64,000 nt of DNA, from positions 4,278,001 to 4,342,000 of the forward strand of contig NZ_JNIM01000001.1 in NCBI RefSeq assembly GCF_000702505.1, written 5' to 3'. Below the pieces are notes generated by a model. That model saw nothing but the letters and a program-made list of their open reading frames with translations, searched no databases and was not told the DNA's origin. The stretch is from Thermogemmatispora carboxidivorans. GTDB taxonomy: Bacteria > Chloroflexota > Ktedonobacteria > Ktedonobacterales > Ktedonobacteraceae. Positions 38,167-62,031 of this stretch are shown in pieces. Position numbers and translations under genes: made by a program. How positions within the stretch are numbered: the first letter of the stretch is position 1; every line of letters starts with the position of its first letter.

Positions 38167-38257
38167 CTCCTGCTCCTTCTTCGATCAAACCACAGGATAG
38201 GGCCGCTGCAGCTCCCTTCCCTGCAGCGCCGGCGGCCTGTCAGCCAGTCATAGCCGC

Positions 38258-39211: not shown

Positions 39212-39224
39212 CTTATCCGCTCAA

Positions 39225-39541: not shown

Positions 39542-40542
39542 TTAGCGCGCAGTGGAGGAGCGGCGTGGCTCCGGTAGCCAGCCGGGCGGCTCGGGCTGGC
39601 CGATGCGATTGCGCAGCACGCCCAGGCCGCTAATCTCTAGTTCGACCACGGCCCCTGGTTGCAGGGAGCGCCCATGCTCGGCGCCGCTCCCAGTTCCGAC
39701 GGTGCCTGAGCCGAGCAGCTCGCCGGGCCAGAGGGTCTCACCGCAGGCGGCGTAGGCCACCAGCTCCTCAATCTTCCAGGTCAGGCTAGCGGTTGAGCCG
39801 CGCGACCACTCTTCTCCATCGACGCGCGCCACCATCGTCAAAGTATGCAGATCAAGTTCATCGCAGGTTGCAATCCAGGGGCCGAGCGCCGTCGCGAAGT
39901 CCTTGCCCTTGGCCGGGCCAAAGCCGCTGCTCATCTCCGGTCCCTGGACATCACGCGCGCTGAAGTCGTTGAGGATGGTCACGCCGAAGAGGAGGTCCAG
40001 GGCCTCCCCCGGCGAGACATTGCGTCCCTGTCTGCCGATGACCAGACCTATCTCTAGCTCGTAGTCCAGATGACGGGTATAGTGCGGCCAGGGGACCTCG
40101 GCCTCGGGGCCACAATGGTCAGAGGGTTGATCTTAAAGTAGGGTGGCCGCTGATAAAACTCGGGAAAGACACTGCCGCCCTGGCGAGCTGCCATATTGCG
40201 GACGTGTTGCTCAAAGGCCGTAAAATCGCGGATGGTTGGCGGATCAAGAGGGGGCAGCCAGCGTACGCTTGCCAGCGGGTGCACGGCTTCCTCCGCCGGG
40301 GCGGCGCTCGCCTCGGCAGCCGCCTCACGAAAGGCCTCGCCCAGGGCGATGGCAGCGCTCATGCTGGCCGGGAAGAGGGCCGTGGCCAGTCGGCGCGCCG
40401 CTTCGCGCGTCGCTCCCCGCTGTTCGAGGCGCAGGCGCCAGGCCGTGGCCAGATCGACGACGCGCTGGGCCTCCGGCTGCACAACGACCAGACGCGCCTC
40501 TTCTCCATCAACACCAGTGACAGCAATACGAGCAAATTTCAC
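39542..40542 (-). pseudogene. Fumarylacetoacetate hydrolase family gene with a -1 frameshift
   Basis: Two minus-strand frames together encode one FAH-family protein of about 333 residues. The first starts at GTG 40542 (VKFARIAVTG, with GAGGT) and runs to YFKINPLTIV. Inserting one G/C near 40110 restores the expected GPEAEVPWPHYTRHLDYELE and joins the second frame, GVTILNDFSARDVQGPEM to ELEISGLGVLRNRIG. All catalytic blocks are otherwise intact, so this is either a recent inactivation or a sequencing error in a C-run. It follows LivM by 85 nt. Confidence 0.85.
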
Positions 40543-40627
40543 AGCGACCTCTCTCCTCTCTGTCTCTCTCTTCCTGTTGAATGTTTCACATCGATCGCCT
40601 GTATCCGAGTGCGCTGGGCCGATCAGG

Positions 40628-46108: not shown

Positions 46109-46870
46109 CTAGAAAGCGCTGGCCCCGCCATCGACGGCGAAGTCAGCCCCTGTGACCCATGAGGCTTCGTCGGAGGCCAGGTAGATGGCACAGAGCACTA
46201 CGTCCTCGGGTGTGCCTACTCGTTTGAGCATCAGCTTACGCATGATGCCGTCGAGGGCGCCAGAGCTGATCGCCCATTCGGTTTGTGGCGTACGTATGAG
46301 GGCAGGCGAAATGGTGTTGGCCCGGATGCCGTATTTACCTCCCTCGGCGGCGAGCTGGCGCGTCATAGCAATGACCGCGCCTTTGCTGGCGGCGTGGGCC
46401 AGGCCAGGTACATCTTCGCTGCCGAATTTGGCAGAGACGGAACCGACGTTGATGATGGAGCCGCCGCCACGGGCTACGAGGTGCGGCCAGGCGGCTTTAC
46501 ACATGTAGTAGACCGTATCTAGCTCGCTGCGCAGGGTGTCCTGCCACATACGGGTCGTCATCTGTTCGATTGGCGCGATCCAGGCCGTGCCGGCGTTGTT
46601 GTAGAGAATGTCGAAGCCGCCGTAGGTCTTGACGGCCAGCTCTACGACGTGCTGGGCCTGCTCGGGATCGCTCAGGTCGCACGGCTGCAGCGAGACCATC
46701 TCTCCGCCGGCCTCGCGCACCAGGCGTACAGTTTCTTCGGCTCCGGCGACGTTGAGGTCGCAGCCGACAATTTTGCAGCCCTCGGCGGCAAAGCGCAGGG
46801 CCGCGACGCGCCCCTGGCCGCTGGCTGTTCCCGTAATGATAGCTACCTTTCCTTGGAGTCGCCCGCTCAT
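46109..46870 (-). CDS. SDR-family oxidoreductase with His in place of catalytic Tyr
   Basis: The 253-aa protein has an N-terminal VAIITGTASGQGRVAALRFA nucleotide motif, YNNAGTAWIAP, a Ser in INVGSVSAKFG, and the C-terminal ASDEASWVTGADFAVDGG. In the active-site block it reads HAASKGAV, so His stands where the Tyr of YxxxK is expected. I start at 46870 with AGGAAGAG; the long upstream extension in frame is spacer. It heads the transporter cluster. A copy of the four-copy element (47102-47169) points at it. Confidence 0.9.
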   Translation of the reverse strand: MSGRLQGKVAIITGTASGQGRVAALRFAAEGCKIVGCDLNVAGAEETVRLVREAGGEMVSLQPCDLSDPEQAQHVVELAVKTYGGFDILYNNAGTAWIAPIEQMTTRMWQDTLRSELDTVYYMCKAAWPHLVARGGGSIINVGSVSAKFGSEDVPGLAHAASKGAVIAMTRQLAAEGGKYGIRANTISPALIRTPQTEWAISSGALDGIMRKLMLKRVGTPEDVVLCAIYLASDEASWVTGADFAVDGGASAF

Positions 46871-47101
46871 CGTTGTGCTCTTCCTCCCAGGCACATGCTC
46901 ACTCGTTGGCGCTCGTCCGCTTGGTCTCCGCTCCTGACCCCGTCGGTCAACAGACCACCAGGCCGCGTCACCGACAGCGGCAGGGGAAGCGGCTCGACTG
47001 CCCTGAGCCAGGCCAGGCTTGCACTGATCGCAGCCGGTGGCCTGCCGGTCGATGGACGTCGCTGGCTGGCCTGTGACCTGCCTGTGACTCTGTCTTTCCT
47101 G

Positions 47102-47169
47102 CAGTGTAGGAGAGGCGTAGGACAAAATCACTACCACTCGCTTCCGTTTTTCCTTTCCGGTCGCTTCCG
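47102..47169 (-). promoter_or_regulatory. Four-copy promoter-like element, copy a (towards SDR gene)
   Basis: Read on the minus strand: CGGAAGC, 16 nt, CGGAAGC, 4 nt, GGTAGTGA, 19 nt, TACACTG. TACACT could be a -10, with tandem activator sites upstream. It is about 230 nt upstream of the SDR start at 46870. Copies b, c and d have the same spacing. The rest of the 46871-47719 spacer holds no gene I can support. Confidence 0.65.
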
Positions 47170-47328
47170 GTTGAGCGCGCTGCTGTTCCAGGACGATCCC
47201 AGCGAGGGGACTGCTTTGAGCTGAGCGGCTGGGATAGCCCTTCGTTAGAGGGCCCTGGTCGGTCTCGCCCGGGCCGGCGACGGCGGCAGGGCCATGATGT
47301 GAGGGCCTCACGTCCTCAGTTGGCCACC

Positions 47329-47396
47329 GGGAAGCGAGCGGAAGAGAAAGTCGGAAGCAAGTGGTAGTGATTTCCTGGGCCTGGCCAGCTACACTG
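47329..47396 (+). promoter_or_regulatory. Four-copy promoter-like element, copy b (towards FAD oxidoreductase gene)
   Basis: GGGAAGC (47329), 16 nt, CGGAAGC (47352), 4 nt, GGTAGTGA (47363), 19 nt, TACACTG (47390), on the plus strand, about 325 nt before the start at 47720. It is back-to-back with copy a in the same divergent spacer. Confidence 0.65.
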
Positions 47397-47719
47397 CATG
47401 ACTGAGGGCAGGCGAGACAGCTTGCGCCGACGCGCGCCTCTCCCCCTTCCCCTGGTGCGGGCTTACTCCTCTCCCCGCATGGGAGAAGCTGGTAAGAGGG
47501 AGGAAGGTAGCGCAGAGGCCGGCGGGTAGCCGCCTGCCCCAGCCAGCCCTTGCCGGGCACACATAAGCAAACACCTACACACACACGAAAGCCTATTCTC
47601 TCCAAGAGTAAAGGTGAGGAGCCGAGAGGAGAGTACGCCATTATGAGCGGACAGTATTTCTGGAGGGCAGCCGTGAGAGTCGCTTGTCAGGTGAGCAGGC
47701 ACCCAGAAAGGCGGTGGCG

Positions 47720-49132
47720 ATGAGCGAGCAGAACAGCTGGGAGCGGGGCAGCACGCCAGAGAGGCTGCAGGGTCGTCTTTTCTGGCGGGGGGAGAGCGGC
47801 TACGAAGAGGCACGCTGCGGGCGTATCTTCAACGGGCGCCGCCCTGAGCGCTATCCCGCCGCCATCCTGTTAGCCAGCAGCGAAGATGATGTCGTGGCCG
47901 GGGTTCGTCTGGCGCGCGCGCACGGCCTGAAGGTCTCTGTGCGCGCTGGTGGCCATAGCTGGGCCGCCTGGAGCCTGCGCGACGAGGCTCTGCTGATCGA
48001 TCTGGGTGGCCTGCGTCAGATCGAACTGGACCGCGAGGCAGGCATCGTGCGCGTCAGTCCAGCGATCACGGGCAGCGAGCTGAATGGTCTGCTGACGCAG
48101 CAGGGTCTGATGTTTCCCGGCGGTCACTGTCCCGACGTCGGCCTGGGTGGCTTCCTGCTCCAGGGCGGCATGGGCTGGAACTGCCGTGGCTGGGGCTGGG
48201 CCTGTCAGCGCATTGAGGCCATCGACGCCGTGACTGCCGACGGCGAGCTGGTTCACGCCGACGCAGAGCATCATCCCGACCTGCTCTGGGCAGCGCGCGG
48301 CGCCGGTCCGGGCTTCTTTGCCATTGTCACGCGCTTCTATCTGCGAGTGCGTCCTCTGCCCGGGGCCTTAACGCGCAGCAGCTTCTTCTATCCCGCCGCC
48401 CTCTTTGACGAGGTCATGGGCTGGCTCTATGAGGAGCATCCTCGGCTGGCTCCCAGCGTCGAAGTGGTCGCCGTGGGCATGGGCAGCGGTGGCGAGCTGA
48501 CGAGCCAGGCCACGCCGGTCTTGCTGGTTCAGGGCCTGAGCTTCGCCGAGACGCCTGCCGAGGCGCGCGAGGCCCTGGCGCCCTTCGAGCGCTGTCCGGC
48601 GCGCTCGCGCGCCCTGCTGGAGCAGGTGCTGGTTCCCACAACCCTGGCCGAGGAATACGCCGAGCAGCGGCGTGCCAATCCCAAAGAGCACCGCTACGCC
48701 GTCGATAATGCCTGGCTCAACGCGCCAGCGGCGACGGCTATTCCCGCCCTGCGGGAGGTCTTTGTCAGCCTGCCCACAGCGCAATCGTTTTCGCTATGGT
48801 TCGGCATGGCCCCCCTGCACCCGCTGCCGGATATGGCCCTCTCGCTGCAGGCCGATGTGTATTTCGCCAGTTACGTGGTCTGGCAGCAGCCCGAGGATGA
48901 CGCCCGCTGCCGTCGCTGGCTGGCCGAGCAGATGCGACACATCGAGCCGATCAGCGAGGGTCTCTTTCTGGCCGATTCGGACTTTACCACGCGCCCAGCG
49001 CGCTTTATGGACGAGCAGCACTGGCAGCGGCTGCAGGCCGTGCGCGCTCGCTACGATCCGACGGGCCTCTTCCATTCCTATCTGATCCATCCCGAGACCC
49101 CCATCAACGTCAATCCCTGGAGCCAGTCCTGA
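47720..49132 (+). CDS. FAD-binding oxidoreductase, berberine-bridge-enzyme type
   Basis: The 470-aa flavoprotein has a PCMH-type FAD domain with RAGGHSWAAWSLRDEALLID (His for covalent flavin attachment), GGHCPDVGLGGFLLQGGMGW and ARGAGPGFFAIVTRFYL, and a C-terminal BBE domain (YDPTGLFHSYL). Relatives oxidise alcohols, sugars or aromatic alkaloid-like substrates with oxygen. I start at ATG 47720 with AAGGCGG; an upstream GTG at 47684 is possible. It is divergent from the SDR gene and shares its element-bearing spacer. Confidence 0.93.
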   Translation: MSEQNSWERGSTPERLQGRLFWRGESGYEEARCGRIFNGRRPERYPAAILLASSEDDVVAGVRLARAHGLKVSVRAGGHSWAAWSLRDEALLIDLGGLRQIELDREAGIVRVSPAITGSELNGLLTQQGLMFPGGHCPDVGLGGFLLQGGMGWNCRGWGWACQRIEAIDAVTADGELVHADAEHHPDLLWAARGAGPGFFAIVTRFYLRVRPLPGALTRSSFFYPAALFDEVMGWLYEEHPRLAPSVEVVAVGMGSGGELTSQATPVLLVQGLSFAETPAEAREALAPFERCPARSRALLEQVLVPTTLAEEYAEQRRANPKEHRYAVDNAWLNAPAATAIPALREVFVSLPTAQSFSLWFGMAPLHPLPDMALSLQADVYFASYVVWQQPEDDARCRRWLAEQMRHIEPISEGLFLADSDFTTRPARFMDEQHWQRLQAVRARYDPTGLFHSYLIHPETPINVNPWSQS

Positions 49133-49444
49133 CTGAACCAGGGTAGCGCCCGCACCGTTTAGCCCCTTGCCCCATGAAAGGCGGCTGGTCGTGGCCCACC
49201 TGGGCCGCCCGCCCCTCTCTCTGGCCCGACCAGCCCCATCCTTCTCTTCCTCTACTGCCTGCCTGTTCTGCCAGGTGAGCACGGAGAGGAGCACCTTCTA
49301 GCAACGGCGAGCGGACGGCGTGGCTTTAGCAGGAAGGCCAGTCGTCCGCCGTGGCGGGTTGACCTCCTGCTGCAGCCGTTCGCCGTCCGCTGAGGACCAG
49401 AAGGGGAAAGGGAGTCTGCAGCTCGGCAGCTCGCTCAGAGCCAA
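49133..49444. other. Convergent intergenic spacer, no gene seen
   Basis: A 312-bp GC-rich spacer between the convergent oxidase and amidohydrolase genes. Short frames here show no family resemblance, and I found no T-tailed hairpin. Confidence 0.6.
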
Positions 49445-50446
49445 TCAGGTCAGGTCAGGGCGCGCGGGCAGCAGATCAGCGTGACCGCTCAAGATCTGCT
49501 GGCGCTCCTGCGGGGCCAGGGCTGCTCCAAAGAGGGCCGTGGGGGCACGTGTTCCCATATCGAAAGGCAGGTCGGTGCCAAGGACCACGCGCTCCGCTCC
49601 CAGCAGCGTTACCAGATAACGCAGCGGCTCGGCCCCATGCACCAGCGAATCGACATAGAGACGTCGCAGCAGGTCGAGCGGCGTCTGATGCAGATGAGAT
49701 AGCTCGGGCCGGACCTGAGCCCCATGCTGCCAGCGTCCCACCACAAAGGGAGCTACCCCTCCGCCGTGGGCTGCCACAAAGCGGATCTGAGGATAGCGCT
49801 CCACTACGCCGCCGAAGAGCAACGAAGCCAGGGCAAAGGCCGTCTCCGCCGGATTCCCCAGCAGATTGCGCAGGTAGTAGCGTGTCAGGCGCTCGGAGCC
49901 CAGGACTTCCAAGGGATGAACGAGCACCAGGGCCTGACGGGCGTCCAGAGCCTGCCAGACCGGTTCCAGCTCGGGCGCATCCAGATTCCAGGCATTGACG
50001 CGCGTCAGAATCTCGATTCCCGCTAGATGAAGCCGATCCATCAGATGGGCGATTTCTTCCGCGGCCCGCTCCGGCTCCTGCAGCGGGGCCAGGCCCAGAC
50101 CGTGGAAGGAGCGCGGATAGCGACGCACGACCGCGGCGATCGCCTCGTTCTGCTCGCGCAGAAGGGGCGCCGCCTCTGCACCCGCTAGCTCGTAGAAGGC
50201 CATGAAGGGCGGAGGAGACAGCACCTGAAGATCGATGCCCGTTGTCGCCAGCAGCTCCAGACGGGCATCGAGATCGTAGAAATCCTCGGGGCGGCAGGCG
50301 CTGCCCAGAGGAATGCCGCCAGTCTCCAGGATCGCTTCCTTACCCTCCCCTCGCCAGCGGGCCCCCAGGATGCGCCCGTCGGGAGCGCGAGCATGCATCT
50401 GGAGATGCTCACGCGCCAGATAATGGGCATGGAAATCGATAATCAT
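49445..50446 (-). CDS. Amidohydrolase family 2 (ACMSD-like decarboxylase/hydrolase)
   Basis: The 333-aa protein starts MIIDFHAHYLAREHL at 50446 with the HxH metal site. It continues with LQVLSPPPFMAFYEL, GLGLAPLQEPERAAEEI, VLVHPLEVLG, FVAAHGGGVAPFVVGRW (metal His) and VVLGTDLPFDMG (Asp). This is the order of 2-amino-3-carboxymuconate-semialdehyde decarboxylase relatives, which decarboxylate ring-cleavage products or aromatic acids. It follows a FAD monooxygenase and an extradiol dioxygenase, so a meta-cleavage pathway step is likely. Confidence 0.9.
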   Translation of the reverse strand: MIIDFHAHYLAREHLQMHARAPDGRILGARWRGEGKEAILETGGIPLGSACRPEDFYDLDARLELLATTGIDLQVLSPPPFMAFYELAGAEAAPLLREQNEAIAAVVRRYPRSFHGLGLAPLQEPERAAEEIAHLMDRLHLAGIEILTRVNAWNLDAPELEPVWQALDARQALVLVHPLEVLGSERLTRYYLRNLLGNPAETAFALASLLFGGVVERYPQIRFVAAHGGGVAPFVVGRWQHGAQVRPELSHLHQTPLDLLRRLYVDSLVHGAEPLRYLVTLLGAERVVLGTDLPFDMGTRAPTALFGAALAPQERQQILSGHADLLPARPDLT

Positions 50447-50559
50447 ACTGCCTCTGTCTGCTGTTAGTCTCTGCACCACGGTTCCAGCCAGCCTGAGCAT
50501 CGAGCGGGTAGGCCCCACCGCGGGCCAGTGATTGGGTCTGTCGGTGGGCGCCTTGCCGC

Positions 50560-51699
50560 TCAGATGGGGGTCGCGGCAATCTCGAACGAGCGGCGCGTCA
50601 GACCCTCCACGTCGGCATCGGGCGTCTGATCGCGCTCCCACTGGCTCAGCTGTGACGAAATCTCGACCAGGGCCTTGCAGCGCTCGTAGCGCCGCTGCAT
50701 AAAGCGATCCAGAGCCTGCGGCAGCGGGTCGCCGCTCGCCACCTCCTCAGCCAGGACGATCGCATCCTCGATCGCCATCGCCGCCCCCTGCGCCACATGG
50801 GCTGTCATGGCATGAGCCGCATCGCCGATCAGTAGCACACGCCCCCGATACCAGGGCGAAGGCAGCAGCAGCGTCTCGAAAGGCCGATAGATCACCTCCG
50901 ACTCATCGGTAATGTAGCGATCGCGCACCAGAGCCACCGGCCCATCGAAAGGGGCGAGCCGCTCGCGATAGGCCGCCGGCAGGCACTCGCGCGGAAAGCG
51001 CGGCGGCGGTCCCGGAGGAGGCGTCTCCACCAACAGAATGTACATCAAGTCGGGAGCCAAGGGGATGAAGCCGGCCTTGCCGTAAGGGCCACCCTCGAAG
51101 AGCCAGCCCGTCGTAACGTCAGGCAAGCGTGGCACATTGCAGCGCCAGCAGACCTGGCCCACGTAGGTCGGCTGGTACTCCGAGCCAAAGACCAGGCGGC
51201 GCACCAGCGACTTCAGGCCGTCAGCCCCTACCACCAGGTCGTAGCTGGCAAAGGAGCCGTCGGAGAAGGTCACCGAGACCTCGCTCTCGGACTGCGCCAG
51301 GGTCGCTATCGTCAGGCCCAGACGGATCACCGCGCCGGACTGCCGCACAGCGTCCTGTAGAATGGCGTGCAGACGGGAGCGCGTGAGGCCATTCCCTGGA
51401 GGATAGCGCGGCCCCGCAATTTGAGGCTGGGGCACCTCGAAGAGAAAGGTCCCCTGGCGGTCGTAGAAGCGCACACCCCCCATCGGGTGCCCGGCGGCAA
51501 TGCACTTTTCGGCCAGGCCAATGCGATCGAGGGCCCGCAGAGCATTACCTTGCTGGATGATCCCCACCCCATAGACGGACCACTGGGGATTAAGCTCGAC
51601 GACCTCGACGTCGCAGCCGATCTGGCGCAGCGCCACTGCCGCCGTCAGGCCGGCGATGCCGCCGCCGACAATCAATATCTTCTGCGCGCTTTTGTCCAT
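50560..51699 (-). CDS. FAD-dependent aromatic monooxygenase
   Basis: The 379-aa class A flavoprotein has ILIVGGGIAGLTAAVALRQI (GxGxxG), a middle DLVVGADGLKSLVRR (DG motif) and RVLLIGDAAHAMTAHVAQGA (GD motif). I start at 51699 with GGAG nine nt upstream. It probably hydroxylates an aromatic ring using NAD(P)H and oxygen, delivering a diol to the dioxygenase encoded just upstream. The substrate is unknown. Confidence 0.92.
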   Translation of the reverse strand: MDKSAQKILIVGGGIAGLTAAVALRQIGCDVEVVELNPQWSVYGVGIIQQGNALRALDRIGLAEKCIAAGHPMGGVRFYDRQGTFLFEVPQPQIAGPRYPPGNGLTRSRLHAILQDAVRQSGAVIRLGLTIATLAQSESEVSVTFSDGSFASYDLVVGADGLKSLVRRLVFGSEYQPTYVGQVCWRCNVPRLPDVTTGWLFEGGPYGKAGFIPLAPDLMYILLVETPPPGPPPRFPRECLPAAYRERLAPFDGPVALVRDRYITDESEVIYRPFETLLLPSPWYRGRVLLIGDAAHAMTAHVAQGAAMAIEDAIVLAEEVASGDPLPQALDRFMQRRYERCKALVEISSQLSQWERDQTPDADVEGLTRRSFEIAATPI

Positions 51700-51752
51700 C
51701 GTAGGACACTCCATCTTTCGCTGAGGATTCTCCCACCGCCCGAGCGAGCTGG

Positions 51753-52784
51753 CTAGCCACGCCCGCGCCGACGGAAAGGATTGACCAGATCGGGATCGAT
51801 CTGTGTGCCCCCGGTGGCCGCCGGCTCGGGGAAGGAGCCGCCCGGCGCCAGTGGGAAGGACTCCGTCATCGAGTCGGGCATGGCGGCGTTGCGGTACATG
51901 GTGTTCGATCCCTGCGAGGGCACCCAGCGCACCGGCTCCCAGTCCGGAATGTAGTTGCGATAGCCGCCCGAGTTCAGCTCGATACGCATGCCGCCCGGCT
52001 CGCGGAAGTAGAGATAGTATTGCTCGCCCATACCGTGCTGGCCGGGACCATACTCCATGCTCAGCCCAGCCTCCAGCAGGATGTCGGTGGCCCGCAGCAG
52101 GTCCTTGATCTCCGGGAGGAAGAAGGCCACATGGTTGACACGGCCCGCGATACCCGAGAAGTCGGCGACAAAACCGAGATCGTGCGACTTCTCGTTGGTG
52201 GTGATCTGCGTGAAGACAACGATCTCTGGCATCTCGTCAGGAACGGTATATTCCATGAAGCGGAAGCCGAGGGTGTCGCAGTACCAGTGGGTGTCTCGCA
52301 TGACGTCGAGTGAAGCCACAGTGACGTGGTCGATCTGGCGCGGAGCCACGCCACGCCCGGTGAAGCGCTGCGGGCGAGCGGGATAGGTTGAGCGCAGCTC
52401 GGGCGGCGCGCTGTAGCGATCTACCTCCCAGAAGACTTCGTTGAGATGGCCACCAGGACCCCGGAAGCGATAGGCTGGGCCATGCCCCGGGCCGCGCTCG
52501 ATCCATTGACCTTGCTGGCCAGCCGCTTCGATCTCCTTGACGGCTTGCTCTAGCTCTTCCGGCCCCCAGGTACGCCAGCCGATATGGCCCAGGGCCGGCT
52601 GCTCTCCAGCGGTGAGCACCAGACTGTGATGATAGAACTCTCCCCAGCAGCGCAGGTAGCAGGAGTCCCCAACCCGCTCGCTCAGCTCCATCCCCATCAC
52701 CTCCGTGAAGAAGCGCAGAGAGTCCTCCAATGCAGGGGTCATGATCTCCACATGGGCCAGGTGGGCAAGCAAATGTTTGCTCAT
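51753..52784 (-). CDS. Extradiol (catechol 2,3-) dioxygenase, VOC superfamily
   Basis: The 343-aa two-domain protein has an N-terminal VOC repeat (HVEIMTPALEDSLRFFTEVM) and a catalytic C-terminal one with the metal triad in IDHVTVASLDVMRD, VNHVAFFLPE and MRIELNSGGY. It would cleave a catechol-type ring next to the diol using Fe(II) and oxygen. About 40 residues after the fold are Pro/Arg-rich. It is first in a three-gene minus-strand operon, and copy c of the four-copy element lies upstream. Confidence 0.93.
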   Translation of the reverse strand: MSKHLLAHLAHVEIMTPALEDSLRFFTEVMGMELSERVGDSCYLRCWGEFYHHSLVLTAGEQPALGHIGWRTWGPEELEQAVKEIEAAGQQGQWIERGPGHGPAYRFRGPGGHLNEVFWEVDRYSAPPELRSTYPARPQRFTGRGVAPRQIDHVTVASLDVMRDTHWYCDTLGFRFMEYTVPDEMPEIVVFTQITTNEKSHDLGFVADFSGIAGRVNHVAFFLPEIKDLLRATDILLEAGLSMEYGPGQHGMGEQYYLYFREPGGMRIELNSGGYRNYIPDWEPVRWVPSQGSNTMYRNAAMPDSMTESFPLAPGGSFPEPAATGGTQIDPDLVNPFRRRGRG

Positions 52785-53245
52785 GGTCTCGTTCTCTCCT
52801 CATTGGGTGGTCGATAGCACCAACAGCGGTAGCAGCAGCATGACGTCCGGCGCGGCCTCGTTCGTCTCCCCCAGGAGCAGCGCCGACGCGATCGGCACCA
52901 GCCCACATCGGCACCCTCCGGCCCGGGTCCCAATAAGTGCCTGTCTGTCCGTTCGTCTGCCTGCCAGTCGCTGCCACCAACGGTAGAGCTGGCTTCGATC
53001 CGCAGTCAAGCAAGCAAGCATATAAGCAGAAGAGGCGCCGCTCTTGATTGACGCTCAACCAGTTCTGTGCTACCATAACAGCCAGGACGCTGCAGAGTGC
53101 CCGTCATGCCTCTCACAACGCTGTGAAAGAGCCTGCCTGCTCATTTGCAAACGACGGGCATCGCACCTGGCGCCTCATCTGACCGAAGGCTGTGTCTGGT
53201 AGAGCGATCTGTCCGTTCCTCCCTCCCGTTCGCCAGACTCGCTCA

Positions 53246-53314
53246 CAGTGTAGCGAAGGGCGGGGGAAAGATCACTACCACTCGCTTCCGCTTTTCCCTT
53301 TCCGGTTGCTTCCG
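53246..53314 (-). promoter_or_regulatory. Four-copy promoter-like element, copy c (towards dioxygenase operon)
   Basis: On the minus strand: CGGAAGC (53314-53308), 17 nt, CGGAAGC (53290-53284), 4 nt, GGTAGTGA (53279-53272), 19 nt, TACACTG (53252-53246). It is about 460 nt upstream of the dioxygenase start, which leaves a long leader without other genes. Confidence 0.6.
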
Positions 53315-53394
53315 GTGAGGGAAAGCACCCGCTGCGCTCTGTCCACAAGAGGATACTGAAAGATGGAAGGACATCGATTTGGGAGCACGACGCC

Positions 53395-56300
53395 GTGGGC
53401 CATCACCGTCGGTATAAGCTCAAAGACGACCGCTTCGGTCTGCTGGCACTCACGCTGCGCGAGAAGGCCGGCCTGACACAGGCTGAGATCGCGACCATGC
53501 TCGGAGTGTCAGAGCGCACGATCCGTCACTGGGAGGGCGGCACGGCCTTCCCTACGAGCGAGAATCTGAAGAAGCTCATCGAGATCTATTGGCATTACGG
53601 CGCTTTCCATGAGGAGCACGCGCGCGACGAGGCCCGTACGCTCTGGCATCAGGCTGCCGAGAGCGCTGCCCGGCGTTCGATCCCCTTCGATGAGCTGTGG
53701 TTTGAGGAGCTACTCCAGACTCAGCGTCGCGTGCCCGCTCATCTCCGCCCCTCTTCTTCTGCCTTTGCCCCGGCTCCGACCCCTCCTGAAGAGTCGGCCA
53801 CTGTCCCCACTGGACCGCTCCCGGCTCAGCTCGCACGCTCGGCCTCCGTCCCTCAGCCGACGACCGAGGCACACGCTGAGTGGGGCGAGGCCCCCGACGC
53901 TTCGGCGTTCTATGGCCGACAGCAGGAGCTGGCCACCCTGGAGCGCTGGCTGCTCTCCGACCATTGCCGCCTGGTCGTTGTCCTCGGCATGGGCGGCATC
54001 GGCAAGACCACCCTGGCGGTGCGTTTCGCTCAACAGGTAGCGCCCCGCTTCGAGCTGATCCTCTGGCGCTCGCTGCGCAATGCTCCCCCGCTCGATGAGC
54101 TGCTGGCCGATTGCATTCAGGCCCTGACTCAGCAGCAGGGTCTGGCGCTGCCATCTCAGCTCGAAGGACGCATGACCCTGCTGCTCGATCAGCTGCGTAA
54201 GCGACGCTGCCTGCTGATCTTTGATAACATGGAGACCTTGCTGCAGTCTGGCAGCTTTGAGGGACGCTATCGCGAAGGCTACGAAGGCTATGGCCGCCTG
54301 CTTCGTCAGGTGGCGGAGTGCACGCATCAGAGCTGTCTATTGGTAACCAGCCGCGAGCTGCCCGGCGAGCTAGAGCCGTTGGAGGGACCGCTCTCGCCGG
54401 TGCGCGTCCTGAAGCTGTTCGGTTTGGAGCGTGAGGCTATTCAGCAGCTGCTAGAGGAGCGCCGCCTCTCAGGCACGCCGCACGCCTGGGACGAGCTGGT
54501 ACGCCACTACGCCGGCAATCCCCTGGCGCTGAAGATTGCCGCCGCTACTGTGCAGGAGGTCTTTGGCGGCCAGATCGAGGCCTTCTTGCGCGAGGGGCCG
54601 ATGCTGCTTCACACGGTGCGTCAGTTGCTCGACTACCAGTTCGAGCGCCTCTCACCTCTGGAGCGCGACCTGATGTACTGGCTGGCCATCGAGCGCGAGA
54701 TGGTCCCGCTAGAGGAGCTAAGCCAGGACCTGCTAGGAGCGGTCTCGCGGCGCGAGTTGCTGGCCGCGCTTAAGTCTCTGCGCTGGCGCTGTCTAGTGGA
54801 ACGCGCCGAGCAGGGGGCGATTTTTACGCTGCAGCCGGTGGTGATGGAATATGTCAGCGAGCGTCTGGTCGAGGAAGTCTGCAACGAGATCCTGCAGGAG
54901 CGCCCCCGGCTCTTGCTCTCGCACGCGCTGATGAAGGCCAACAGCCAGGACTATATCCGTGAGAGTCAGATGCGTATGCTGCTGCAGCCGCTGCTAGAGC
55001 GTCTGCTCTCCTTCTGCGGCGACGAGCAGCGGCTGGAGGAGCGGCTGATGGCTCTGGCGGGTAGCCTGCGCGGGCTGCCCTACACGGCCCAGGGCTATGG
55101 TGGAGGCAATCTGGTCAATTTAGTGGCCACGCTGAATGGCCATGTCCGTGACAAGGATTTTTCTGGCCTGGCCGTGCGTCAGGCTTATCTGCAGGGCATA
55201 GAGGCCCAGCGGGCCAGTTTTGCTGCCGCCTGGCTGAGCGACTCGCTCTTCACGGAGCCGGTTGAGAGCATCGCCTCACTTACTCTCAGCCCCGACGGGC
55301 ACCTGTTGGCTGTGGGCAGCTTCAGCGGGCAGATTCGCCTCTGGCACCTGACGGAAGGGCGCCCGCTATTGACGCTGCGCGGCCATAGTCGCATGGCCTG
55401 GGCCCTGGCCTTTAGCCCCGATGGGCGCCTGCTCGCCAGCGGGGGCTATGACCGCAGCGTGAAGCTCTGGCACGTCAGCGGCGAGGAGCGGGGGCAATGT
55501 TTTCGTCTCTTCCAGGGCCACGAGAAATGGGTGCGCGCCGTGGCCTTTAGTCCTGACGGGCGCCTGCTCGCCAGCAGCGGCATGGACCAGACGATTCGCC
55601 TGTGGGAGATCGAGACGGGCCGCTGCCTGAAGGTGCTCTATGGCCACATCGGACCCGTCTGGGATCTGGCTTTCAGCCCCGATGGTCGGTTCCTGGTAAG
55701 CAGCGGCAATGATGAAACGGTGCGCCTCTGGGAGGTTCAGTCGGGCGCCTGCTTACGCATTCTGCGCGGTCACAGCGGCGATATCATGGCGGTCGCCTTC
55801 CACCCACAGGGCGAGCTGTTCGCCAGCGGTGGCGAAGATGGCCTGGTCAATCTCTGGGACATGACCAGCGGGCACCTTCTGGCCACGCTGCGCCTGCATA
55901 CGACGCGCGCGGCCACCATCGCCTTTAATCCCGAGGGAACGCTGCTGGCCAGCGGCTGCGACGACGGCGCGGTCGAGATCTGGCAATTGAACGGCGAGGC
56001 CCAGCGGCTGCGCATTCTGCACGGACACTCTACCTTTGTGAGCGCGGTGGCCTTCGGTCCCGCCGGCCTGCTGATCAGCGTCTCCTACAGCGGCAAGGTC
56101 AAGCTCTGGGATGTGGAGAGCGGCAAGTGCCTGCGTACCTTGCAGGGCCACAGCAGCGTGGCCCGCTCGATGGCCTTCAGCCCTGATGGGCGCTACCTGG
56201 TGCACGGAGACGATAACGGGCTGCTCCGCCTCTGGCTCCTGGAGCCTGGCGGCCAGGCCCGCTGCCTGCGCGCTTTCCAGGGCCATGCCGGCCCGATCTG

Positions 56301-57213
56301 GTCGATCCTCTTCCGCGACAGCCAGACCTTTATCAGCAGCGGCGACGACCAGGCGATCCGTCTCTGGTCTCTGAGCGAGCAGGAGCAGGAAGGGACAACA
56401 CACTGCCTGCAAACCTGGCATGGCCATAGCGCCGTCATCTGGTCCCTGGCGCTCGCTCCCGACGGTCAGCTGCTTGCCAGCGGGAGCCACGATCGCACCG
56501 TCCAGCTCTGGGACCTGAGCCGCGAGGGCCAGGCCGCTTGCCTGAAGACTCTCCACGGTCATAGCTCGATGGTCTGGTCGCTGGCCTTCAACCCCGATGG
56601 CAGCCTCCTCGCTAGCGGCGATAACGACGGCGAGATCAAGTTGTGGGAGGTCGCCAGTGGGCGCTGTCTGCGGACACTGCAGGGCGAGGCCAGCCCTATC
56701 GGCGCCCTGACCTTCAGCAGCGATGGCCGCTTTCTGTTGAGCAGCAGCAACGACGGCAGCCTCAGTCTCTGGGAAGTAAGCAGCGGCTACCGCTGCCAGC
56801 GCTGGCCCGGCCAGGGGGCGCTCACCTGGTTTCGGGCAATTGCCTTTAGTCCCGATGCGCGCCTGCTCGCCAGCGGCGATGAGCATAGCCTGCGCCTGGG
56901 CCAGATCGACGGCCTGAGCTACCACCTCTGCGAGCAGGCGTTTGCCCGCCACCGTGGCCAGGTCTGGTCGGTGGCCTTCAGCACTGACGGCGAGCTGCTC
57001 GCCAGCGGCGATGACGACGGCGTGATTTTCGTCTCCCAGGCCAAAACTGGGGCCTGCCTCTACGTCCTGCGGAGCGAGCGCCCCTACGAGGGGATGAGCA
57101 TTCGCCATGTGCGCGGCCTCAGCGAGGCACAGAAAGCCTCCCTCAAAGCCCTGGGCGCCTGCGAAGGAGGCAGCGAGGCAACGCCGCCCACACCGCCTAC
57201 TCCCTCAAGCTAA
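53395..57213 (+). CDS. XRE-HTH / STAND NTPase / 14 x WD40 protein
   Basis: The 1272-aa protein has an N-terminal HTH (LTQAEIATMLGVSERTIRHW, about residues 26-45), a Pro/Ser-rich linker, a NB-ARC-like P-loop domain from about residue 175 (FYGRQQEL, GMGGIGKTTLAV, CLLIFDNMETLL, LLVTSRE, GNPLALKI), a helical winged-helix section, and from about residue 630 fourteen WD40 repeats of the FSPDGRLLASG...LW type. Two seven-bladed propellers are therefore likely. STAND proteins of this form act as ligand-triggered switches, often in signalling or defence. Start GTG at 53395 with GGGAG nine nt before. The minus-strand frames in it are repeat shadows. Confidence 0.95.
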   Translation: MGHHRRYKLKDDRFGLLALTLREKAGLTQAEIATMLGVSERTIRHWEGGTAFPTSENLKKLIEIYWHYGAFHEEHARDEARTLWHQAAESAARRSIPFDELWFEELLQTQRRVPAHLRPSSSAFAPAPTPPEESATVPTGPLPAQLARSASVPQPTTEAHAEWGEAPDASAFYGRQQELATLERWLLSDHCRLVVVLGMGGIGKTTLAVRFAQQVAPRFELILWRSLRNAPPLDELLADCIQALTQQQGLALPSQLEGRMTLLLDQLRKRRCLLIFDNMETLLQSGSFEGRYREGYEGYGRLLRQVAECTHQSCLLVTSRELPGELEPLEGPLSPVRVLKLFGLEREAIQQLLEERRLSGTPHAWDELVRHYAGNPLALKIAAATVQEVFGGQIEAFLREGPMLLHTVRQLLDYQFERLSPLERDLMYWLAIEREMVPLEELSQDLLGAVSRRELLAALKSLRWRCLVERAEQGAIFTLQPVVMEYVSERLVEEVCNEILQERPRLLLSHALMKANSQDYIRESQMRMLLQPLLERLLSFCGDEQRLEERLMALAGSLRGLPYTAQGYGGGNLVNLVATLNGHVRDKDFSGLAVRQAYLQGIEAQRASFAAAWLSDSLFTEPVESIASLTLSPDGHLLAVGSFSGQIRLWHLTEGRPLLTLRGHSRMAWALAFSPDGRLLASGGYDRSVKLWHVSGEERGQCFRLFQGHEKWVRAVAFSPDGRLLASSGMDQTIRLWEIETGRCLKVLYGHIGPVWDLAFSPDGRFLVSSGNDETVRLWEVQSGACLRILRGHSGDIMAVAFHPQGELFASGGEDGLVNLWDMTSGHLLATLRLHTTRAATIAFNPEGTLLASGCDDGAVEIWQLNGEAQRLRILHGHSTFVSAVAFGPAGLLISVSYSGKVKLWDVESGKCLRTLQGHSSVARSMAFSPDGRYLVHGDDNGLLRLWLLEPGGQARCLRAFQGHAGPIWSILFRDSQTFISSGDDQAIRLWSLSEQEQEGTTHCLQTWHGHSAVIWSLALAPDGQLLASGSHDRTVQLWDLSREGQAACLKTLHGHSSMVWSLAFNPDGSLLASGDNDGEIKLWEVASGRCLRTLQGEASPIGALTFSSDGRFLLSSSNDGSLSLWEVSSGYRCQRWPGQGALTWFRAIAFSPDARLLASGDEHSLRLGQIDGLSYHLCEQAFARHRGQVWSVAFSTDGELLASGDDDGVIFVSQAKTGACLYVLRSERPYEGMSIRHVRGLSEAQKASLKALGACEGGSEATPPTPPTPSS

Positions 57214-57246
57214 GTGTGGGCGCTCCCTGGTGGCCCCGCGCTTTTT

Positions 57247-57268
57247 TCCTTTCCTTCCTTCCTTCCTT
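57247..57268. repeat. TTCC tetranucleotide tract
   Basis: About five TTCC units just after the WD40 gene stop, in the 503-bp spacer before the epimerase gene. Confidence 0.75.
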
Positions 57269-57350
57269 CTTCATGCAAGGCAGCCACCGCGGCTGAGCTG
57301 GTCTCTTCTCCACTGGCGTTGCAGGAGCGCGGCGGAAGCGTCCAGTGGAC

Positions 57351-57419
57351 CGGAAGCAACCGGAAAAGCGAAAACGGAAGCGAACGGTAGTGAACTCTGA
57401 CCCCGGTCCAGTTACACTG
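57351..57419 (+). promoter_or_regulatory. Four-copy promoter-like element, copy d (towards epimerase operon)
   Basis: CGGAAGC (57351), 17 nt, CGGAAGC (57375), 4 nt, GGTAGTGA (57386), 19 nt, TACACTG (57413), about 300 nt before the ATG at 57717. The rest of the 57214-57716 spacer holds no gene I can support. Confidence 0.65.
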
Positions 57420-57716
57420 AGCAGCAGAGTGGAGGAACAGATGGCTGGTGCTCTGTGGACTGTGCCCGGGCCTGCGCTGCTTGCGGGTCACCGTCGTCGT
57501 TGGTGGCGTTCCTGCCGCTCTCGCTCCCCTGGAGCGGTCCCGTGCCGCATGGCTCCTGGGCGCCTCTCCCCCGTTCGGCAGCGCCCCAGGGGCCGGCGCT
57601 ACGGGCGGCGTCCCCTCGGCGACCGGGCACAGCGCCGAGCACCAGTCGACAGGCAGAGACTGTTCACCACGCTAGCGAAGCGAAGCGGTAGGCAGCAGAG
57701 GAGGAACAGAGCGAGC

Positions 57717-58718
57717 ATGGCCCAAGAACGCTTTCTTGTCACCGGGGCCCTGGGCTGCATCGGGGCCTGGATCGTGCGCAACCTTGTGCGCGAAGGCACC
57801 CCCGTGGTCGCTTTTGACCTGGGCCAGGACAGGCGGCGACTCAAGCTGATTATGGCCCCCGAGGAGCTGGCCCAGGTCACCTTCGTTCAAGGCGACCTCA
57901 GCGAGCTGGCAGTCGTGGAGCAGGTCATTGATCACTATGGGATCACCCACGTCATCCATCTGGCCGCGCTCCAGATGCCCGCTGTACGGGCCAATCCCCC
58001 GCTGGGGGCGCGCGTCAACGTCGTCGGCACCGTCAACGTCTTCGAGGCCTGCCGCCGCCGGACGGACCAGGTCCGGCGCATCGTCTACGCCTCCTCCGTG
58101 GCCGTCTACGATCCCAAGGCCGGCGGCCCGAGCGGCCTTGTCCAGCACGATACGCCACTGCGCCCTCACTCGCTCTACGGCGTCTTCAAACAAGCCAACG
58201 AGGGCACGGCGCGCATCTACTGGCAGGAGCACGGCCTTACCAGCATCGGCCTGCGCCCGGCGACCGTCTACGGCCCAGGCCGCGACCAGGGCCTGACCTC
58301 GGCTCCTACGCGGGCCATCCTGGCCGCTGTACTGGGGCAACCCTTCCACATTCCCTTTGGGGGACGGGGCGAGTTTCAATACGCCGATGATGTGGCCAAA
58401 ACCTTCATTGCCTGCACACGCGCCCCTTTCGAGGGCGCCGAGGTCTTCAATCTGCATGGGACCGTCGCCCACATGAGCGAGATCGTCACCCTCATCGAGG
58501 AACTGCTGCCCGAGAGCCGTGGCCTGATTACCTTCGCCGAGCCGGCCTTTCCTTCACCCGAGGCCTATTCCGCCGAGGCCCTGAGCCACGTCATCGGCGA
58601 GCCACCGCAGACGCCGCTGCGCGAGGGCATCGCCGCCACGCTGGCCCTCTTCCGCGAACGAGTCGCAGGCGGTGAGATCAACGAGCGCTCCCTACAGGAA
58701 GGCAGCGCCGGCAACTAA
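57717..58718 (+). CDS. NAD-dependent epimerase/dehydratase family protein
   Basis: The 333-aa extended SDR has FLVTGALGCIGAWIVRNLVR (GxxGxxG), VIHLAALQMPAVRANP, YASSVAVYDP with the Ser, YGVFKQANEG with the catalytic Tyr and Lys, LRPATVYGPGRDQG, and FQYADDVAKTFIACTRAPF. I start at 57717 behind GAGGAGGAA; the open upstream frame is spacer. It begins a plus-strand operon with lactonase- and FAH-type genes, so it may be a sugar or uronate dehydrogenase rather than a nucleotide-sugar epimerase. Confidence 0.9.
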   Translation: MAQERFLVTGALGCIGAWIVRNLVREGTPVVAFDLGQDRRRLKLIMAPEELAQVTFVQGDLSELAVVEQVIDHYGITHVIHLAALQMPAVRANPPLGARVNVVGTVNVFEACRRRTDQVRRIVYASSVAVYDPKAGGPSGLVQHDTPLRPHSLYGVFKQANEGTARIYWQEHGLTSIGLRPATVYGPGRDQGLTSAPTRAILAAVLGQPFHIPFGGRGEFQYADDVAKTFIACTRAPFEGAEVFNLHGTVAHMSEIVTLIEELLPESRGLITFAEPAFPSPEAYSAEALSHVIGEPPQTPLREGIAATLALFRERVAGGEINERSLQEGSAGN

Positions 58719-58837
58719 GCGGCAACTAAGCGGCCGCTGCGCTGAAGCTCTCCAGCAGCCCAACCACGCCAGTGCGGGAAGGCCAGGAGCTTCCCCACTC
58801 GAAGCAGTTTGTAGACGAGAAAGGAAGAGAAGCGCTG

Positions 58838-59167
58838 ATGATTGTGCTTGTGGCACGTTACTATGGCAAGCCAGGCCAGGGCGACGCCATCGAGGCCGCC
58901 CTCAAACAGATGGCGCCCCGGGTCGCTGCCAGTGAGCCAGGTTGCTTGCTCTATCACGCCTGCCGCTCGCAGGAGCACCCCGATCAGTTCCTGCTCTATG
59001 AGCAGTATGTCGACGAGGCTGCCCTGCAGCAGCATCGCGAAACGGAGCACTACCGCCAGCTTGTTGAAGGGACCATTCTGCCGCTGCTCGAGAAACGCGA
59101 GCGCGACCTCTATACACTGGTCGTTGGTCAGCCTCCAGCCTCCACAGAGCAGAGAGCAGGCGAGTAG
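58838..59167 (+). CDS. Putative quinol monooxygenase, ABM domain
   Basis: This 109-aa paralogue of the 10563-10850 protein shares EPGCLLYHACRSQEHPD, FLLYEQYVDEAALQQH and LPLLEKRERDLYT. It has the cofactor-free ABM fold. The ATG at 58838 has AAGGAAGAG upstream; the FAH-family gene follows after 3 nt, so the two are probably coupled. It probably acts on a quinol or a small oxidised intermediate; unproven. Confidence 0.87.
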   Translation: MIVLVARYYGKPGQGDAIEAALKQMAPRVAASEPGCLLYHACRSQEHPDQFLLYEQYVDEAALQQHRETEHYRQLVEGTILPLLEKRERDLYTLVVGQPPASTEQRAGE

Positions 59168-59170
59168 CAG

Positions 59171-60208
59171 ATGAGCACCCGATTTTTTGCCCTCGGTTCC
59201 TTTTCTATCGCCGGCTGCCCGCCATTTGCGGGCCTGGTTTTGGATGAGCGCGTGATCGCCGTCCACGCCCTGCAGCCACTTTGCGAGCGCCTCGGCCAGC
59301 CCCTGAGCGACGACGGGAGTGTCCTGGGTCTGTTGCAGCAGTGGGAGCGCAACCTGGCCGCCCTGCAGCGAGTCGTCGAGGTCCTGGCTGAGCCAGCCGC
59401 CGCCGCAGTCATCTCCGACCAGCACTGGCTCCCGCTGGCAGCCGTCCATGTTCACGCACCAATCCTCTACCCACGTCAGATCTTCTGTGCCGGCGCCAAC
59501 TATCGTCAGCACGTCATCGAGCTGGCCACCGCCCAGGGTCACGGCGCCCACGACACCCGCGACGAGGCCGAGCGCCGCGCCCTGGCCGAGCGCATCATGG
59601 ATGCCCGCATCGCCAACGGCATCCCCTACGTCTTCACCAAAATCCCATCGGCCATCACTGGCCCCTACGATCCCATTCCTCTGCCTGCCGACAGCACGCA
59701 ACCGGACTGGGAGCTAGAGCTAGGCGTCGTGATCGGACGACCCGCACGCCGCGTTAAGCGCGAGGAGGCGCTGGCCTACGTCGCCGGCTACACCATCGTC
59801 AACGATCTGACCTGTCGAGATCGCGTCTACCGTCCCGATCTGCAGGCCATCGGCAGCGACTGGCTGCGCAGCAAATGCCCGCCGGGCTTCCTTCCGACCG
59901 GGCCTTTTCTCGTGCCAGCCAGCTTCGTGCCCGATCCCCAACAGCTCCACCTGACCCTCAAACTGAACGGCCAGGTCATGCAGGACGAGGGGAGCGATGA
60001 CATGATCTTCGGCGTCGCCCGCCTGATCGAGTACATCTCTCACTACGTGCAGCTCTGGCCCGGCGACCTGATCTGCACTGGCTCGCCGCGCGGCAACGGC
60101 ATGCACTACCAGCGCTTCCTCCAGCCCGGCGACGTGCTAGAAGGCAGTATCAGCGGCCTCGGCACCCAGCGCAACCGCTGCATCGCCGAGGAGGAGAGCG
60201 ACAGCTAA
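59171..60208 (+). CDS. Fumarylacetoacetate hydrolase family protein
   Basis: The 345-aa protein has a longer N-terminal domain and the catalytic FAH core: FCAGANYRQHVIELA, TKIPSAITGPYDPIPLP, DWELELGVVIGRPARRV, YTIVNDLTCRDRVYRP, DLICTGSPRGNG and the C-terminal GSISGLGTQRNR. Members hydrolyse or hydrate 2,4-diketo or oxo acids. It sits between an ABM monooxygenase and an SMP-30 lactonase. A product-cleaving step of a lactone or aromatic pathway is likely. Confidence 0.92.
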   Translation: MSTRFFALGSFSIAGCPPFAGLVLDERVIAVHALQPLCERLGQPLSDDGSVLGLLQQWERNLAALQRVVEVLAEPAAAAVISDQHWLPLAAVHVHAPILYPRQIFCAGANYRQHVIELATAQGHGAHDTRDEAERRALAERIMDARIANGIPYVFTKIPSAITGPYDPIPLPADSTQPDWELELGVVIGRPARRVKREEALAYVAGYTIVNDLTCRDRVYRPDLQAIGSDWLRSKCPPGFLPTGPFLVPASFVPDPQQLHLTLKLNGQVMQDEGSDDMIFGVARLIEYISHYVQLWPGDLICTGSPRGNGMHYQRFLQPGDVLEGSISGLGTQRNRCIAEEESDS

Positions 60209-60247
60209 AGGCCGCCGGACCAGACCCAGGCAAAGGAGAGCAGCAGC

Positions 60248-61297
60248 ATGGTGTCCTCAGCCAACCCACTCAAAGACTGGCGGGTCGATCGCCACAGCAT
60301 CCGCACCATCGGCCATGATCTGCAGCGCCCGGAGTGCATCCTGGCCGAGCGAGATGGCACCCTCTGGGCCGCCGATGCCCGCGGCGGCGTCATGCGCATC
60401 AACCCTGACGGCAGCCAGCAGCTCATTTTGCCCGTGGTCGAGCGCGCGCCAGACGCGGAGCCGACCCAGGCACAGGAGGACGGCACCAGCTTCGAAGAGC
60501 GCTATGTCCAGGCTCAGGGATCGCTGCCCAACGGCCTGGCCTTCGCCGAGAACGGCGATATCATCATCGCTAATTGGGGGACCGACGCCGTCGAGATCAT
60601 GACGCGCGACGGGCGCCTGCGCACCCTCTACCGCGAGATCGACGGCCAGCCGCTGGGTAAGGCCAACTTCGTTCTGCGCGACAGCAAAAATCGTATCTGG
60701 CTCAGCGTCAATACCCGCGAGCACCCCTGGACCAACCAGCTCAACACACGCACCGCCGATGGCTACATCGCCCTCATCGACGAGCATGGCATCCGCATTG
60801 TCGCCGAGGGCTTCTGCGGGACCAATGAAATCCGCCTCGACGCGCGCGAGGAGTGGCTCTACGTTGTCGAAAGCACGGCCTGGCGCATCAGCCGCCTGCG
60901 CGTCCAACCCGACGGCTCCCTGACCGATCGCGAGATCTACGGTCCCTCACGCCTGCCCGGCTTCCCGGATGGCTTCGCCTTCGATGCCTACGGTAATCTC
61001 TGGGTGACGCTGATCTTTACCGACCAGCTCATCGCCATTACGCCAGAGGGCGAGGTCCTGACCCTGCTCGACGATAGCCATCCCGAGACGCAGGCGCGCC
61101 TCTTCGCCCACTACGAGAGCCACACGCTGACCCCCGAGATCCTGGCGGCCACCCACGGCACCATCGCCCCCTGGCTGGCTAGCCTGACCTTCGGCGGGCC
61201 AGACCTGCGCACCGTCTATCTCGGCAGCCTGCGCGGAACCACTATCCCCTATTTCCGCAGCCCGGTTCCCGGCCTGCCAATGATCCATTGGCACTAA
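60248..61297 (+). CDS. SMP-30/gluconolactonase/LRE family protein
   Basis: The 349-aa beta-propeller shows RPECILAERDGTLWAADARG, LPNGLAFAENGDIIIANWGT, CGTNEIRLDAREEWLYVVES, FPDGFAFDAYGNLWVTLIF and DLRTVYLGSLRGTTI. These are the metal-site Glu/Asn/Asp blocks of calcium-dependent lactonases. AAAGGAGAG precedes the ATG. With the FAH and epimerase genes it suggests oxidation of a sugar to a lactone followed by opening and cleavage. Substrate unknown. Confidence 0.92.
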   Translation: MVSSANPLKDWRVDRHSIRTIGHDLQRPECILAERDGTLWAADARGGVMRINPDGSQQLILPVVERAPDAEPTQAQEDGTSFEERYVQAQGSLPNGLAFAENGDIIIANWGTDAVEIMTRDGRLRTLYREIDGQPLGKANFVLRDSKNRIWLSVNTREHPWTNQLNTRTADGYIALIDEHGIRIVAEGFCGTNEIRLDAREEWLYVVESTAWRISRLRVQPDGSLTDREIYGPSRLPGFPDGFAFDAYGNLWVTLIFTDQLIAITPEGEVLTLLDDSHPETQARLFAHYESHTLTPEILAATHGTIAPWLASLTFGGPDLRTVYLGSLRGTTIPYFRSPVPGLPMIHWH

Positions 61298-61488
61298 GCA
61301 AAGCCACCGGCACAGCGCACAGAGGAGCCTGCGAAGGCCGCCGGACGCCAGGTCGCCTCTGGCCTGGCCCGGCAGCCGACCTGGCTTTCCTTTGCGCCCG
61401 GACAAAGAAGCATACGAGCACAAAAGCTGAGCCATTACCTACTCCTATCAGCATCATCATAATCATAAAGAAGAGAGGCCAAACACTT

Positions 61489-62031
61489 ATGTCCAGGCAG
61501 CAAAAACCGCCCTCCCTCGCTGCATTGACAGCAGCCGGCGCACGCTGGTTCCAGGTTGCCTACGCCGTCAACGATCTCGCCGAGGCCCAGCGCTTCTTTC
61601 AGGAGACGCTCGGCGTGCCCCGCTTCTTCGTCATCGAAGACATCCAGTTTCGGGCTTACACCTATCGCGGACAGCCGGCCTACTGCCGCCAGCATGTGGC
61701 CTTTGGCTACGCCGGTCCTCTGCAGATCGAGCTGATGCAACCGCTCGAAGGAGAGAACAGCCTGACCGCGTTCCTGCGCCAGCGCGGCCCAGGCGTGCAT
61801 CATCTGGGGCTGGAGGTTGATGACCTTGAGCAGGTGCTGGGGGCCCTTCAGGGAGCCTCAGCCCCCGAGGGAACAGAGAAGGTGACTATTATTGAGAGCG
61901 GGATCGCTGGCCAGGGCACCCGCTTCGCCTTCCTCGATACACTGGCCAGCAGCGGCACCTACCTTGAGCTGGTCACCCTCGACGAAGAGAATCGCGCCCT
62001 TTTCGAACGCATCCGCCGCGGCGACTTCTAG
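61489..62031 (+). CDS. VOC family protein (glyoxalase/dioxygenase-like)
   Basis: The 180-aa protein has two VOC half-repeats: FQVAYAVNDLAEAQRFFQET at the start, and GVHHLGLEVDDLEQV with a metal His, ending TYLELVTLDEENRALF with a metal Glu. I start at the ATG at 61489 (GAGAGG upstream); the frame is open further but non-conserved. It ends the epimerase operon after a 191-nt gap and may act as an isomerase or hydrolase on a pathway intermediate. Confidence 0.88.
   Translation: MSRQQKPPSLAALTAAGARWFQVAYAVNDLAEAQRFFQETLGVPRFFVIEDIQFRAYTYRGQPAYCRQHVAFGYAGPLQIELMQPLEGENSLTAFLRQRGPGVHHLGLEVDDLEQVLGALQGASAPEGTEKVTIIESGIAGQGTRFAFLDTLASSGTYLELVTLDEENRALFERIRRGDF

Follow-up and report, generated by a model that had tools for sequence, protein, structure and literature searches.

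A promoter-like element of two phased repeat pairs and its candidate STAND regulator in Thermogemmatispora

A stretch of 64,000 nucleotides of the Thermogemmatispora carboxidivorans genome (hereafter the window) carries four copies of an element of about 70 nt, each lying upstream of a catabolic gene, and the question raised by this locus is what the element does and which protein acts on it. The original prediction described the copies as promoter-like elements of a local regulon, and named a protein encoded between the third and fourth copies as a candidate regulator by position only.

Architecture and promoter-like geometry of the element

On direct inspection of the sequence, the four copies (a to d) have the coordinates, strands and spacing originally predicted, and the order R1, R3, R4 and TACACT recurs with fixed spacing in all of them. 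The architecture of the element is CGGAAGC, 10 nt, CGGAAA; 13–14 nt; CGGAAGC, 10 nt, GGTAGTGA; 19 nt; and TACACT. R1 and R3 both read CGGAAGC(G/A)A, R2 is CGGAAA (CGGAAG in copy b) and R4 is yGGTAGTGA, with 34 columns invariant across 21 element copies. The starts of R1 and R3 are 23 nt apart in copies a and b and 24 nt apart in c and d (intervening gap 16–17 nt), while the distances from the CGGAAGC of R3 to GGTAGTGA (4 nt) and from GGTAGTGA to TACACT (19 nt) are the same in all four. Four stretches of the window match the string CGGAAGCNANNGGTAGTGA-N19-TACACT perfectly; after dinucleotide shuffling, no match was present in any of 100 sequences, even when three mismatches were allowed. The order CGGAAGC, CGGAAGC, GGTAGTGA and TACACT stands as first described, but a second upstream box, CGGAAA or CGGAAG, had been overlooked; since this R2 follows R1 by one helical turn (10 nt), the element consists of two phased box pairs.

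Copy a (47102–47170, minus strand) comprises R1 at 47169–47163, R2 at 47159–47154, R3 at 47146–47140, the GGTAGTGA of R4 at 47135–47128 and the -10-like TACACT at 47108–47103, and faces a unit encoding an SDR oxidoreductase and a Liv ABC transporter. Copy b (47329–47396, plus strand), with R1 at 47329–47335, R2 at 47339–47344, R3 at 47352–47358, R4 at 47363–47370 and TACACT at 47390–47395, faces a gene for a BBE/EncM-like FAD oxidase. Copy c (53246–53315, minus strand) faces the extradiol dioxygenase unit, and has R1 at 53314–53308, R2 at 53304–53299, R3 at 53290–53284, R4 at 53279–53272 and TACACT at 53252–53247. The epimerase unit is faced by copy d (57350–57419, plus strand), in which R1 occupies 57351–57357, R2 57361–57366, R3 57375–57381, R4 57386–57393 and TACACT 57413–57418. 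From TACACTG to the gene start there are approximately 231 (a), 324 (b), 461 (c) and 298 nt (d), in agreement with the leaders of 230–460 nt claimed at the outset. No Rfam match was found within the window, and the leader folds are no more stable than those of shuffled sequences (z between -1.7 and 0.3).

TACACT is invariant and agrees with the -10 consensus at four of six positions. The -35 element had been placed in the GGTAGTGA region, which is upheld, although the best-aligned hexamer is GTGAyy (made up of the R4 end and the next two bases), inside the GGTAGTGA box and 17 nt from TACACT; it shares three of six positions with TTGACA, and four of six at the fifth genomic site described below. 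Activator-dependent promoters typically combine a weak core promoter with conserved boxes that reach -35 and extend as far as about -70. The element thus has the features of an activator-dependent sigma-70 promoter, namely a -10-like hexamer, a poor -35 at 16–18 nt and a box, R4, that overlaps the -35. The same motifs could also be read by an alternative sigma factor, for example of the ECF type, with CGGAAGC/GGTAGTGA as -35 and TACACT as -10, as GGAA-type -35 elements are typical of ECF promoters and the spacing is fixed. We consider this very improbable, because R3 lies about 31 nt from TACACT, which is the wrong spacing for a GGAAGC -35, because the second conserved pair at -60/-70 would be needless for a sigma factor alone, and because only five sites occur genome-wide.

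Distribution, conservation and the fifth site

The census is based on pattern and profile searches. The pattern search of the 5.6-Mb genome returned exactly one more exact copy, at 3,135,155–3,135,222 (minus strand), 1.2 Mb from the window. A profile made from the 21 copies, with which the best 150 first-look candidates per genome were scored, recovered the same five copies at 61–72 bits, the next match reaching 12 bits. The expectation of further copies upstream of genes was thus borne out by this fifth copy, and all five genomic sites face the start of the next same-strand gene. The notion of a local regulon holds for the four units in the window, but not for the distant site, so that the regulon is not purely local.

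Orthologous copies are kept in four other genomes: five of six Thermogemmatispora genomes hold 4–5 copies each in matching places, with five sites per genome and four in two relatives. Among 29 genomes of the family, the profile detected 23 sites with at least 61 bits, all in these five genomes, and the next match scored 17.8 bits. Across 47 genomes of the order, there were at most weak, chance-like matches beyond the genus, the other Ktedonobacteria being without the element. Among approximately 85,000 species genomes, clustered matches occurred only in Thermogemmatispora records (T. tikiterensis T81, T. aurantia A1-2 and a Thermogemmatispora MAG). One pattern match outside the genus, with two mismatches, was rejected, as it sits within an SDR coding region, and matches in Spirosoma, Bacteroidaceae, Acidobacteriaceae and Ulvibacter were set aside as approximately the number expected by chance in 257 Gb (about 7 by our own estimate).

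When the five regions were aligned across genomes, identity was 87–97% in the element versus 16–69% upstream and 43–86% in the 200 nt downstream, so that each copy is a sharp conservation footprint. The high identity downstream of copy c is likely due to a plus-strand promoter at 53048–53076, which is discussed with the candidate regulator. The possibility that the copies are termini of mobile elements or a recently duplicated repeat draws on the approximately 70 nt common to them and on the inverted pair formed by a and b. The original prediction had spoken against this, and it now has almost nothing to recommend it: the boxes are identical between copies while the GGTAGTGA-TACACT spacers are unrelated, the copies lie at matching, unchanged positions in every one of the five genomes, each stands just upstream of a gene, and no transposase was seen alongside them in the gene calls.

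The gene behind the fifth copy encodes a secreted-looking protein of 646 aa, which has a hydrophobic stretch near its N-terminus, matches no family, and gave no usable fold in its AlphaFold model (mean pLDDT 38). It is present in all three genomes with the fifth site, complete in G000 and G005 and split by contig ends in G003; in the genomes without that site, only a C-terminal piece remains (G001) or the gene is absent (G002 and G004). The fifth site and its gene are retained or lost jointly.

The units faced by the element

Unit a begins with the SDR oxidoreductase gene (46109–46870, minus strand), followed on the same strand, from 45934 down to about 39542, by genes for LivGF, LivK, LivH, LivM and an FAH-family protein, of which the Liv genes are read as a branched-chain-type ABC transporter. 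The target of copy b is the oxidase gene at 47720–49132 (plus strand). Unit c (49445–52784, minus strand) encodes a catechol 2,3-dioxygenase-like protein (51753–52784), an FAD monooxygenase (50560–51714) and an amidohydrolase (49445–50641), and unit d (57717–62031, plus strand) encodes an epimerase, an ABM monooxygenase, an FAH hydrolase, an SMP-30 lactonase and a VOC protein. Co-transcription of the downstream genes in each unit is assumed from spacing and strand. Judged by their predicted products, units a to d combined look like a system for taking up an aromatic or similar compound and cleaving its ring.

Several further observations concern these units. The FAH-family gene of unit a (39542–40638, minus strand) consists of two ORFs here but is uninterrupted in three relatives, where it encodes about 370 aa, and the split is read as a frameshift or sequencing error. 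In the leader of unit b, a segment of about 70 nt with partial inverted symmetry (47437–47508, plus strand; CTCTCCCCCTTCCCCTGGTGCGGGCTTACTCC...GGGAGGAAGG) is nearly invariant in four genomes, with poorly conserved flanks, and is possibly a dispersed intergenic repeat or an attenuator. The same leader contains a small ORF of 26–27 aa (47643–47723, plus strand; MSGQYFWRAAVR...PERRWR), preceded by a Shine-Dalgarno-like sequence and kept in four genomes with an in-frame 3-nt indel; since its stop codon and the ATG that begins the BBE oxidase overlap, the arrangement suggests translational coupling. Within 30 nt of the TACACT of copy d lies GGAGGAACAG-ATG (57428–57447, plus strand), which starts an ORF that remains open into the epimerase in T. 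carboxidivorans, and that ends earlier or shifts frame in relatives.

The candidate regulator and its proposed mode of action

Between copies c and d, in all five element-bearing genomes, sits a gene (53395–57213, plus strand) for a protein of 1272 aa. Its predicted DNA-binding effector domain is an XRE-type HTH at aa 21–64 (HTH_3, 2.4e-10), its STAND ATPase part matches both NB-ARC (2.8e-10) and NACHT (1.5e-09) past the Pfam cut-off, and its C-terminus contains 12 WD40 stretches, forming a repeat-built putative sensor domain. Searches with its N-terminal parts yielded orthologues (86–96% identity over those parts) in precisely the five element-bearing genomes; in the sixth genome, which is without the element, all that is found is a 46% paralogue whose N-terminus differs. 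YhfZ and GntR-FCD, the HTH regulators flanking the cluster, have orthologues of 89–90% identity in that element-free genome. The STAND protein is the best candidate for the regulator, as its phyletic distribution matches that of the element and that of the flanking HTH regulators does not, a match which rests on one element-free genome (G004, 89% complete) and is shared by all genes of the block deleted there.

That block, 39498–62006 of the window, is absent as a unit from G004, which retains the sequence on either side together with the final 26 nt of the VOC gene. The G004 contig aligns to 28,387–39,253, with short matches to about 39,497, and continues with 62,006–62,031, which is the end of the VOC gene, and then with 62,132 onward. 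Missing are approximately 22.5 kb holding the four elements, the four catabolic units and the STAND gene, and the VOC remnant suggests that the block was once present and was then lost. In the gene calls, no HTH gene other than the STAND gene was seen in the lost block, although the deletion cannot separate the STAND gene from the block's non-HTH genes. Adjoining the block is a yhf-like gene set (32275–39211, minus strand; YhfZ regulator, permease-like, phosphotriesterase-like and aminotransferase-like genes), which is retained in the species without the block.

Upstream of the STAND gene is a putative sigma-70-like promoter with an extended TG (53048–53076, plus strand; TTGACG-17 nt (TG)-TACCAT). 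It is the sole consensus match in 46800–57800 (shuffles 0.8 ± 1.0), and both hexamers are identical in five genomes. The predicted STAND transcript would cross element c in the antisense direction, its promoter facing that of copy c. The protein thus keeps the candidacy first given to it, but no longer by position only: the phyletic match, the co-lost block and the overlapping promoter arrangement at copy c now speak for it as well. For distant relatives of its HTH, at 25 loci in other Ktedonobacteria, the best mismatch counts of nearby boxes equalled those of shuffled controls. The genome also contains two more WD40-STAND-like paralogues, L059 and L067, each with a different XRE-like N-terminal HTH, and each might therefore have its own set of boxes. 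A defence-system reading of the STAND gene was rejected, PADLOC giving only a repeat-domain match and weak HTH matches.

It is conceivable, though on balance unlikely, that the element is a regulon promoter read by another protein, either encoded elsewhere or one of the flanking YhfZ and GntR-FCD. Position alone is no proof of a regulator, and both flanking genes are syntenic with the cluster in relatives; however, their orthologues remain where all elements have been lost, GntR proteins normally bind short palindromes, and a regulator encoded elsewhere would leave the joint loss of all sites and the block in need of a separate explanation. In our view, the element is probably a sigma-70-type promoter that depends on an activator and serves a dedicated regulon of five units, the activator most likely being the STAND ATPase. 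Under this activator model, TACACT would serve as the -10 and GTGAyy, 17 nt upstream in R4, as a weak -35, and the activator would sit on the two phased pairs, R1-R2 (about -70/-60) and R3-R4 (about -47/-36), recruiting RNA polymerase from a position overlapping the -35. The arrangement of the boxes as direct repeats makes binding by DNA-binding domains in a chain or oligomer likelier than binding by one palindromic dimer. An inducer, which may be an intermediate of the pathway or a protein that partners the WD40 part, would together with ATP bring about STAND oligomerisation, and the oligomer could let several HTH domains read the direct repeats side by side, by analogy with MalT. The STAND gene itself would be transcribed from its separate, ordinary promoter facing element c, and production of the regulator could additionally be held down when c is occupied or when its promoter fires. 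Counting against the activator model are that XRE-type HTHs commonly bind palindromes while the boxes here are direct repeats, that near the distant HTH relatives in other Ktedonobacteria such boxes do not exceed chance, and that the leaders of 230–460 nt are long. In addition, the WD40-STAND proteins that multicellular bacteria encode are frequently interpreted as conflict systems (PMC7159879, PMC10907252).

Among the closest parallels are the MalT regulons of E. coli, Klebsiella and Actinoplanes, which likewise have repeated asymmetric boxes, a box overlapping the -35 and several transcription units, with a STAND ATPase inside its own regulon in Actinoplanes as for the candidate here. With its inducer, MalT assembles into multimers and thereafter occupies its boxes in a cooperative manner (PMC4381067). 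Actinoplanes MalT is a STAND activator encoded within its 51-gene target region, and its motif, which also occurs in related genomes, overlaps the -35 upstream of 17 transcription starts (PMC7567727). In contrast, MalT has a C-terminal LuxR-type HTH, a TPR-like sensor and GGA(T/G)GA boxes, whereas the candidate has an N-terminal XRE-type HTH and a putative WD40 sensor, and the boxes here are CGGAAGC in two 10-nt pairs 23–24 nt apart. The features of the MalT family proper, a C-terminal LuxR-type HTH and GGA(T/G)GA boxes, are lacking; the type and end of the HTH differ and WD40 replaces the TPR-like part, so the protein would be a variant of STAND regulators and not a MalT. The SARP/AfsR regulators of Streptomyces resemble the present case in their helically phased direct repeats reaching the -35, and AfsR is also a STAND protein, the model of which the NB-ARC part of the candidate matches weakly. 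The SARP rule requires repeats 11 or 22 bp apart and a 3' repeat 8 bp from the -10 (PMC10936776), but the spacing here is 10 nt in pairs, 23–24 nt between pairs and 19 nt to TACACT, and the DNA-binding domain of SARPs is a winged helix rather than an XRE domain. The same paper presents GutR (glucitol/sorbitol) as a STAND activator of a catabolic operon that is activated by inducer and then ATP (PMC10936776); the comparison with the candidate is limited to these features.

Among the open-licence papers searched, none was found on the five-site Thermogemmatispora regulon, nor one that assigns a DNA target to any large WD40-STAND protein of Ktedonobacteria or other multicellular bacteria, in which such proteins are common. 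From the sequence evidence, we find it an evenly balanced proposition that an XRE-HTH/NB-ARC/WD40 protein, although its class is generally suspected of conflict roles, acts here as the inducer-responsive master activator of a catabolic regulon, reading two phased direct-repeat pairs per promoter by oligomerisation and limiting itself via the face-to-face promoter at c. Such a transcription-factor role becomes directly testable where a WD40-STAND protein can be paired with fully enumerated sites, a strain that lost the block naturally, and promoters of clear geometry. The locus also defines a predicted regulon for an extradiol-type breakdown pathway of thermophilic Chloroflexota that has so far been uncharacterised.
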